Shown here: piece after piece, positions 55,580 through 56,444 of the stretch | How positions within the stretch are numbered: position 1 is the stretch's first letter | Layout: every line of letters begins with the position of its first letter | Assembly: GCF_002252525.1 (NCBI RefSeq) | Contig: NZ_NNRM01000021.1 | Location: 62,001-126,000 of the forward strand | Reading direction: 5' to 3' | Source of the DNA: Brucella pseudogrignonensis | GTDB lineage: Bacteria > Pseudomonadota > Alphaproteobacteria > Rhizobiales > Rhizobiaceae | DNA length: 64,000 nt | Notes under the pieces: model-generated | The model's input: only the letters and a program-made list of their open reading frames with translations | Database searches by the model: none | What the model was told of the DNA's origin: nothing | Position numbers and translations under genes: made by a program

Positions 55580-55640
55580 TCGAGCGCATCCCGAAAAGTG
55601 TGAAACAGTTTTCAGATGAAGATGCGCGTTAAAGCTCTAG
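55580..55640 (+). repeat. Family B repeat, shortened copy (B4) between the atpB paralogue and the sugE riboswitch
   Basis: Begins TCGAGCGCATCCCGAAAAG (55580 onwards), then TGTGAAACAGTTTTCAG and ends in AAAGCTCTAG. Its right end includes the stop codon of the atpB paralogue. It separates the two guanidine-controlled genes. Confidence 0.75.
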
Positions 55641-56386
55641 TGAGAAGGATGCAGGGCGTCGTTTAGATACATGCAGCTTAGCATGGTGAAAACATATGCC
55701 TGAATGATAGCCATAAGCAATTCGAGTGCGGTAAGTGCGACAGTCATGGCAAGTGGTAGAACTGCCGACAACAAGCCCATCGTGCCCAAACTGCCCAAGC
55801 CCACGACAAAGCCCGCAAAGACTTTAAGCGTGATGTGCCCCGCCAGCATGACGGCAAACAAGCGCACCGAATGGCTGATTGGCCGTGAAATATAGGACAT
55901 CACCTCGATAGGTACTATAATCGGCGCGAGTATCATGGGGACACCTGCCGGCATAAACAGCTTGAAGAATTTAAAGCCGTGGCGGACCAGCCCATAAATA
56001 GTCACGGTGAGAAATACGAGCATCGCCAGCGCGAATGTCACAATGATGTGGCTTGTAACCGTAAAGGCATACGGAAACATCCCAATGAGATTTGCGACGA
56101 GGATGAACATGAAAAGCGAGAAAACCAGCGGGAAGAACTTCATCCCGTGTTCGCCTGCATTCTCGCGAATCGTTTTGGAAACAAACTCGTAGAGCATTTC
56201 GACTGACGACTGCCAGCGGCCAGGCACAACCCGATTCCGGCGTGAGGCTAAAAACAGAAAGCCAGCAGCAACTGTTACAGTCAGCAGCATGTAAAGCGCA
56301 GAATTTGTGAAGACAATCTGTTGGCCACCAAGTGTACCAAGCTCGACGATAGGTCGAATCGCAAATTGCTCAATAGGTCCAGCCAC
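55637..56386 (-). CDS. Orphan, divergent ATP synthase F0 subunit a under guanidine-II riboswitch control
   Basis: A 249-residue membrane protein clearly homologous to AtpB. It has five to six transmembrane helices (about 30-47, 88-108, 115-132, 145-165, 178-196, 205-240), the essential Arg175 (E. coli Arg210) in SVRLFAVMLAGH, Gln229 in IQAYVFTML and the usual C-terminus ending in LNDALHPSH. At residue 179 it has Val where the typical family sequence has Asn (E. coli Asn214). The gene is alone: no atpI, atpE, atpF or other ATP synthase gene lies within this window. The start is GTG at 56384-56386 with GAGGGG upstream. Two ACGR hairpins precede it. It is most likely a guanidine-induced alternative a subunit; a pseudogene is unlikely because the reading frame is full length. 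Confidence 0.9.
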   Translation of the reverse strand: MAGPIEQFAIRPIVELGTLGGQQIVFTNSALYMLLTVTVAAGFLFLASRRNRVVPGRWQSSVEMLYEFVSKTIRENAGEHGMKFFPLVFSLFMFILVANLIGMFPYAFTVTSHIIVTFALAMLVFLTVTIYGLVRHGFKFFKLFMPAGVPMILAPIIVPIEVMSYISRPISHSVRLFAVMLAGHITLKVFAGFVVGLGSLGTMGLLSAVLPLAMTVALTALELLMAIIQAYVFTMLSCMYLNDALHPSH

Positions 56387-56400
56387 GGAACACCCCTCTT

Positions 56401-56444
56401 ATGGGGCCGTCCCCTATGCGAACACAGACGCGGGTCGTCCCGCG
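56401..56444 (-). ncRNA. Guanidine-II (mini-ykkC) riboswitch of the atpB paralogue
   Basis: On the minus strand: P1 CGCGGG-ACGA-CCCGCG (56429-56444) and P2 GGGG-ACGG-CCCC (56403-56414), separated by 14 bases or 11 if the looser outer pairs are counted. The P2 stem is followed by the AGAGGGG ribosome site and the GTG start at 56386. Loop sequences (ACGA then ACGG) are the same as in the sugE riboswitch 850 bases away, while the stems differ in sequence yet keep pairing, which supports a conserved structure. Confidence 0.88.

Follow-up and report, generated by a model that had tools for sequence, protein, structure and literature searches.

A guanidine-II riboswitch before a second ATP synthase a-subunit gene in Brucella pseudogrignonensis and its relatives

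We analysed a 64,000-nucleotide stretch of the Brucella pseudogrignonensis genome (assembly GCF_002252525.1, contig NZ_NNRM01000021.1, positions 62,001 to 126,000 of the forward strand; hereafter the window), which carries a paralogous gene for the a subunit of F1Fo-ATP synthase, here called atpB', behind a guanidine-II riboswitch. Control of atpB' by a switch of this class is well supported, and guanidine would be expected to bind this RNA and to turn the gene on. We consider it somewhat probable that the product, AtpB', serves as a substitute a subunit, made in response to guanidine, with which protons keep flowing under guanidinium. Bacteria have several classes of guanidine riboswitch, yet the reason why guanidine is harmful is unsettled; on this point, passages of one review mention protein denaturation and misfolding as possible consequences and offer nothing further (PMC12186494). 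A spare a subunit controlled by such a switch suggests one definite target, namely the proton path of ATP synthase. In this enzyme a small molecule would then bring about the exchange of the proton-channel subunit. In literature searched by title and abstract, a scope outside which the original guanidine-II gene tables fall, we found no report pairing a guanidine-II switch with ATP synthase or atpB. The string "ATP synth" is absent from the main text of PMC12186494, PMC7266159 and PMC9788692, as is "ATP synthase" from PMC7736828.

The atpB' gene, its riboswitch and their conservation

A sequence-only reading of this DNA had taken atpB' for a full-length AtpB paralogue, and profile searches bear this out. 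The protein scores 228 bits against Pfam ATP-synt_A (cut-off 33.9) and 370 bits against the NCBIfam equivalog NF004482 (cut-off 225); against TIGR03306 altF1_A it reaches 80.2 bits, below the cut-off of 302.1. Five structural models were predicted, and the best of them, which we used (mean predicted local distance difference test score, pLDDT, of 77.5; 49-63 for the other four), resembles the yeast a subunit 6b2z with a template modelling (TM) score of 0.83. Pfam, NCBIfam and the predicted model agree in placing AtpB' in the a-subunit family by both profile and fold.

The same reading had described the gene as isolated. This holds for ATP synthase genes, none of which is found among the five neighbours of atpB' run against Pfam, but it fails for guanidine-related genes. 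On the minus strand the order is aptamer, atpB', second aptamer and a gene for an exporter of the small multidrug resistance (SMR) family (Table 1), and both this second switch and the exporter downstream of atpB' had been missed. The exporter scores 131 bits against NCBIfam NF008512 SugE (cut-off 126), which puts it at the level of a SugE equivalog.

Guanidine-II architecture, with ACGA and ACGG loops, had been proposed from two hairpins about 17 nt upstream of the atpB' start, and the Infernal search suggested as a check matched them to RF01068 above the gathering cut-off. Searched for in the whole 64-kb window, this match has an E value of 0.0078, and in a 401-base stretch one of 4.9e-5; the two aptamers of the window are the only RF01068 matches in the whole genome at E 0.001. 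In the ligand-free minimum-energy fold of the leader (-35.7 kcal/mol, z-score -2.22, both from the energy model only), part of a Shine-Dalgarno-like sequence pairs with one arm of P2. The P2 hairpin and this pairing are mutually exclusive, and the leader therefore fits the requirement of a translational ON switch, whose ligand-free fold would hide the start region.

Table 1. Features of the window discussed in the text, ordered along the forward strand
Feature	Position	Strand	Remarks
SMR exporter, SugE/Gdx type, 105 aa	55187..55504	-	Pfam PF00893, 94.8 bits
Second guanidine-II riboswitch, before the SMR gene	55523..55565	-	Rfam cmscan, 38.7 bits
atpB' (paralogous F1Fo-ATP synthase a subunit)	55637..56386	-	GTG start, 249 aa; profile matches and predicted model
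Val179 codon (E. coli 214)	55850..55852	-	Val in 80/80 AtpB'; Asn in 51/54 and Ser in 3 canonical copies
Arg175 codon (E. coli Arg210)	55862..55864	-	Invariant in both groups
His172 codon (E. coli 207)	55871..55873	-	His in 80/80 AtpB'; Leu in 52/54 canonical copies
Shine-Dalgarno-like AGAGGGG	56393..56399	-	Ligand-free minimum-energy fold: GGGG paired to the CCCC arm of P2
Guanidine-II aptamer RF01068, before atpB'	56403..56446	-	Rfam cmscan, 33.1 bits (gathering 32)
P2 of this aptamer	56403-56414	-	Loop ACGG
P1 of this aptamer	about 56428-56445	-	Loop ACGA

With six short peptide seeds we scanned 84,980 species genomes and found 125 relatives, of which the best 80, mostly Hyphomicrobiales by their record titles, were kept. 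In 69 of these 80 relatives an RF01068 match at gathering lies before atpB' at a distance of no more than 320 nt, and in another seven both ACGR hairpins can be made out by eye (L049, L086 and L102 among these seven score 31.6 bits, just under the cut-off). The first aptamer's score by itself is barely above the cut-off; because RF01068 recurs before the same gene in these 69 relatives, the comparative evidence makes the riboswitch call secure. Chance resemblance to a riboswitch is likewise ruled out by these upstream matches and by those in four genomes found in another way. A DNA pattern around the Val214 site described below was searched for in 397 genomes of the order and matched just five, because that sample spreads evenly over families; one was the window's own genome, and the other four all carry RF01068 at gathering upstream (two repeat relatives L099 and L082, and two are new).

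The paired regions have changed in the manner of a conserved RNA. Among 45 distinct stems, taken from 66 of the 69 switches, pairs 3, 4, 6 and 7 of P1 are each found in two or more Watson-Crick types, both sides having changed, and pairs 1-3 of P2 are invariant. The P1 loop is ACGA in 42 of these stems and ACGG in 3; the P2 loop is ACGG in 37 and ACGA in 8. The aptamer adjoins atpB' in 23 of the 69 relatives and is set off by a longer spacer in 46, a proportion to be read together with the hiding of the GGGG, for which the fit to ribosome-binding-site control comes from the energy model only. Many of these long leaders (for example L045, L048, L077 and L109) have, after the switch, an ATCTC..GAGAT-type hairpin and a spacer with short frames; the ends of some of these frames fall on or at the start of atpB', which looks like translational coupling. 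We looked for a spare c or b gene inside these spacers and rejected the idea, finding only the hairpin and varied short frames and, by eye, no atpE-like protein.

Within the window's genus (35 genomes, its own included), atpB' is intact in 15, in pieces in 4 and not found in 16, two of which yielded short atpB' remnants in a further look. The gene-switch pairing, which the sequence-only reading had proposed to look for in other Brucellaceae, is present in 14 of the 15 intact cases, with the aptamer 15-18 nt before the gene, as well as across the Hyphomicrobiales. The fifteenth (G033) gave no upstream match at E 0.001, and L044, apparently the same locus, shows both hairpins by eye. The breaks in two of the genomes with atpB' in pieces, G001 and G006, may be sequencing errors, because the canonical copy is broken there too. 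At three loci of the genus, L164 (G011), L009 (G023) and L165 (G019), a remnant of atpB' lies with one or two guanidine-II switches near an SMR gene, and these look as if atpB' had been lost. In a Phyllobacterium nodule isolate, atpB' and its switch (34.0 bits) are found on a 477-kb plasmid record (L366; NZ_CP088276.1, 89136-89885), where the gene is annotated merely as F0F1 ATP synthase subunit A.

Two a subunits for one c subunit

A separate, normal atpB had been expected if atpB' is a spare gene, and we found one beside atpE; thus atpB' is not the only atpB of its genome. The canonical gene lies at G000:C8:585940-586677, its product is 61% identical to AtpB', and the sole ATP-synt_C match of the genome (C8:586774-586962) lies about 100 nt past it. 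Fifty further genomes were reached through atpB' loci and 49 of them were searched; each of these 49 encodes one AtpB' (68-77% identical to the window copy) and one canonical AtpB (54-63%). One extra a-subunit fragment, of 21 residues, turned up in G458, where the canonical copy is at a contig end. All 12 genomes tested for the c-subunit gene have exactly one, and the canonical c-ring is therefore the only partner available to AtpB', which would assemble into F1Fo with that single ring. A second complete ATP synthase (an alternate F1Fo or an N-ATPase with its own operon) was considered and rejected, there being no atp gene among the tested neighbours and one c gene.

We aligned 80 AtpB' sequences (the window's and those of 79 of the 80 loci) with 54 of 55 canonical copies. 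The dropped rows were L041, whose frame breaks after 34 residues and which was also left out of the tree and the selection analysis, and the canonical L238, whose frame was unrecognised. Fifty-seven columns are invariant across both groups and 10 separate AtpB' from the canonical copies. Among the residues invariant in all 80 AtpB' and all 54 canonical copies are Arg175, His184, Glu222 and Gln229, which we take to be Arg210 and positions 219, 245 and 252 of the E. coli subunit. Close to the arginine the groups part: His172 and Val179 (positions 207 and 214) share one predicted helix (residues 151-198) with Arg175, at i-3 and i+4 from it, and differ from the residues usual in canonical copies (Table 1). 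A whole-protein search found 16 AtpB' of the same genus, the window's and several of the 80 included, and all have both the His and the Val. The parts of a paper on the Bacillus PS3 structure that deal with these positions name N214 and Gln252; N214 is placed near the c-ring and among the residues most accessible to Ag+, and it is listed from mutagenesis as functionally important (PMC6377231).

In a tree of 96 sequences (42 of the 80 AtpB' and 54 of the 55 canonical copies), built by a quick method with no bootstrap, AtpB' forms one side of a branch with a Shimodaira-Hasegawa-like approximate likelihood ratio test (SH-aLRT) value of 99. The ratio of nonsynonymous to synonymous substitution rates (dN/dS) was estimated from 10 of 11 chosen AtpB' (L034 had no equal-length partner) and has a median of 0.066 over 32 of 45 pairs, with a largest value of 0.34 and many dS values above 1. 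Canonical pairs, aligned ungapped from the 3' end, have a median of 0.051 (103 of 105 pairs; the largest value, 1.19, is an alignment artefact, and the median alone was used). By these estimates AtpB' is under purifying selection, and the median of 0.066 led us to reject a pseudogene.

Possible roles of AtpB'

The steps by which AtpB' might act as a guanidine-induced substitute are as follows. A rise in guanidinium would let the aptamer form P2, freeing the Shine-Dalgarno sequence and turning on translation of atpB', and the second switch would turn on translation of the exporter in parallel. AtpB' would then stand in for the canonical subunit opposite the single c-ring, keeping the essential arginine and the other proton-path residues. 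If guanidinium is likened to an arginine side chain, replacing Asn214 by Val and Leu207 by His may make the surface that faces the c-ring less inviting to this flat ion, and proton flow and ATP synthesis could continue until the exporter had cleared the cell. A subunit swap of this kind was already part of the sequence-only reading, and it is strengthened by the single c gene and by the two clade-specific changes that flank the essential arginine. The switch, the paralogue, the single c gene, the altered residues, conservation and selection are all read from sequence; tolerance of guanidinium by AtpB' would be the step beyond them. As background, sections of one paper report that guanidinium inhibits bovine mitochondrial complex I, with a half-maximal inhibitory concentration (IC50) of 25.8 mM, and that mitochondrial ATP synthase is inhibited by biguanides, of which two affect only the hydrolysis direction (PMC4148174).

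Several points weigh against a guanidine-tolerant substitute. According to the same sections, ATP synthase itself, working in the synthesis direction, was little affected by metformin at concentrations up to 250 mM (PMC4148174), and the literature we searched held no report of guanidinium itself inhibiting a bacterial Fo. No switch was found near atpB' in 4 of the 80 relatives (three Pseudochrobactrum-like, one Shinella). AtpB' is patchy across the 35 genomes of the window's genus and, judged by that distribution, is therefore dispensable. His at position 207 also occurs in 2 of the 54 canonical copies and in the Paracoccus a subunit 5dn6_X, and because of the latter Val214 is the stronger mark. 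One of the search seeds, FAVMLAGH, includes this Val, and 6 of 79 loci carry that seed alone; the other 73 carry another seed, and the Val result is therefore not forced by the search. Finally, tolerance of guanidinium leaves unexplained the clade-specific M225 and I228 and six other changes.

Repair of energy or pH balance is a close rival of guanidine tolerance, and sequence alone cannot separate the two. AtpB' might alter how F1Fo is coupled or which way it runs, for instance in favour of proton pumping, and ChaA-type and Mrp antiporters would be its partners in balancing ions. SMR exporters exchange one guanidinium for two protons, according to passages of a review (PMC12186494); two protons thus enter for each guanidinium exported, and guanidine stress would therefore drain the proton gradient and acidify the cell. 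Such repair would also suit the switch-linked neighbours of atpB' in Agrobacterium-type loci, which are components of cation/proton antiporters (see below), and the position of the altered residues at the half-channel, a site at which coupling might be adjusted. We nevertheless hold it to be somewhat unlikely. An SMR gene follows atpB' on the same strand in 29 of the 80 loci (in 16 of these 29 with a second aptamer at gathering), and no exporter gene was found in the other 51 within the stretch examined, up to 4 kb either side. In addition, the orphan MrpF proteins of the Agrobacterium-type loci lack a conserved acidic residue, which looks more like an altered ion path than like extra antiport.

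The same substitutions could instead act as a brake, with AtpB' making Fo a poor conductor of protons (and of guanidinium) and so sparing the gradient under stress. The mutagenesis listing of Asn214 as functionally important in E. coli, given in a portion of PMC6377231, allows that Val could slow the motor. A brake sits poorly, however, with the invariance of Arg210 and of positions 219, 245 and 252 and with a dN/dS nearly as low as that of the canonical subunit, and we judge it unlikely.

More unlikely still is that the RNA senses a guanidine derivative, such as a breakdown product of a biguanide, and that AtpB' protects against that compound. Biguanides do inhibit ATP synthase, as stated in excerpts of PMC4148174, and a chlorhexidine-type efflux protein (PF05232) stands behind guanidine-II switches in some atpB'-bearing genomes (one Pfam-tested), but the aptamers fit the standard guanidine-II model with its ACGA and ACGG loops, and elsewhere in the phylum this class precedes carboxylase and SMR genes. 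That atpB' is a bystander, an inert duplicate caught between a guanidine-II switch and an exporter gene, would suit the exporter and second switch directly downstream in the window, but it is hardly credible and already contradicted by the pairing in 69 of 80 relatives (76 with those seen by eye), by the 51 loci with no exporter gene in the examined stretch, by purifying selection and by a single clade with fixed residue changes.

Several known systems resemble a guanidine-induced substitute subunit in part. Guanidine-II switches (mini-ykkC, RF01068) are known before SMR/Gdx exporters or guanidine carboxylase; the window has the same aptamer, the same predicted ON logic and an adjoining exporter with its own copy, but the gene here encodes a core ATP synthase subunit, which is neither an exporter nor a guanidine-degrading enzyme. 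With F-type AtpB, AtpB' shares full length, the essential arginine, the half-channel residues and the fold, and it differs in being a second copy outside the atp operon, with Leu207 changed to His, Asn214 to Val and a riboswitch in front. A known toxic-ion riboswitch likewise controls ion-sensitive enzymes besides transporters; there the controlled gene encodes a whole enzyme, whereas atpB' encodes a single subunit of a membrane machine and has fixed changes at the ion path. Ribosomal proteins, too, are swapped for paralogues in response to zinc, so that a large complex receives a paralogous subunit under stress; those swaps rely on a protein repressor and serve metal economy, and involve neither a riboswitch nor an ion channel.

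Other guanidine-II loci and neighbouring genes

In five Agrobacterium-type loci (L073, L074, L084, L095 and L108), an orphan MrpF gene, a ChaA-type cation/proton antiporter gene and a small open reading frame (ORF) also stand behind guanidine-II aptamers. At L073:2147-3846 four guanidine-II switches are packed into 1.7 kb, the MrpF one divergent and the others standing before the ChaA-type gene, a small one-helix ORF and atpB', and the other four loci are arranged likewise. Five more loci (L047, L050, L051, L055 and L101) have an antiporter gene with its own aptamer upstream of atpB'. Among these antiporter-type loci Pfam was run on L073 and L047 only; at L073 it assigned the orphan MrpF to PF04066 (60 bits) and the antiporter to PF01699.

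All five orphan MrpF proteins (L351, L352, L084, L095 and L108) have Pro (YLPF, YFPV) in place of the membrane Glu or Asp (YFEA, YVDI/YIDI) of ten other MrpF, and they keep an Asp that matches D35 of the Mrp structure paper, a position placed via a mutagenesis primer. The MrpF alignment missed two of four orphans and the canonical L343; the orphans were read from their loci. Genomes G456, G457, G470 and G476 each have two other MrpF genes besides the orphan. The altered, switch-linked MrpF fits the idea of a guanidinium-tolerant subunit for a second ion-translocating machine. Tentatively, and with slightly less than even confidence, we suggest that the guanidine switches of Hyphomicrobiales run a regulon for ion-path protection, in which an exporter is joined by guanidinium-proof single subunits swapped into two unrelated machines, F1Fo (AtpB') and the Mrp/Pha antiporter (orphan MrpF, with the membrane acid changed to Pro). 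If this is true, the ion paths of Fo and Mrp would be the physiological targets of guanidinium toxicity.

Across a sample of the phylum, 59 of 299 genomes have a guanidine-II aptamer, with 68 matches in all (two of them the window's own). None of the 48 guanidine-II loci inspected in the other genomes of this sample has atpB. An SMR gene is present in 27 of the 48, and 15 of the other 21 start, by eye, with biotin-carboxylase-type frames. Pfam tests confirmed one biotin-carboxylase-type frame and found DUF1989 and DUF6766 proteins at two other loci.

Other genes stand behind guanidine-II switches in genomes that we reached through atpB'. At L307 and L309, in two genomes reached through Aminobacter loci, the gene belongs to the ammonium-transporter family (PF00909, 186.6 bits at L307; by eye at L309). 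Six loci of atpB'-bearing genomes have the chlorhexidine-efflux PF05232 protein in this position (by Pfam at L304; by eye at L305, L310, L312, L313 and L315). Three Pseudochrobactrum-like loci with an unswitched atpB' (L064, L068 and L069) come from genomes in which a ChaA-type gene elsewhere lies behind a switch of 30.0-30.7 bits, under the cut-off (L318-L320); in two other Pseudochrobactrum genomes (L316, L317) a ChaA-type gene has a switch too, alongside a switched atpB'. The record of L064 is titled Bacillus subtilis SK6B4 and groups with Pseudochrobactrum in the tree, and is mislabelled or contaminated.

Farther along the window, at 57660-58857, just past a divergent metallo-beta-lactamase (MBL)-fold gene (56583-57569), a tRNA-like fragment seen by eye, on which ARAGORN makes no call, lies beside a phage integrase; this is perhaps the junction of an inserted element.
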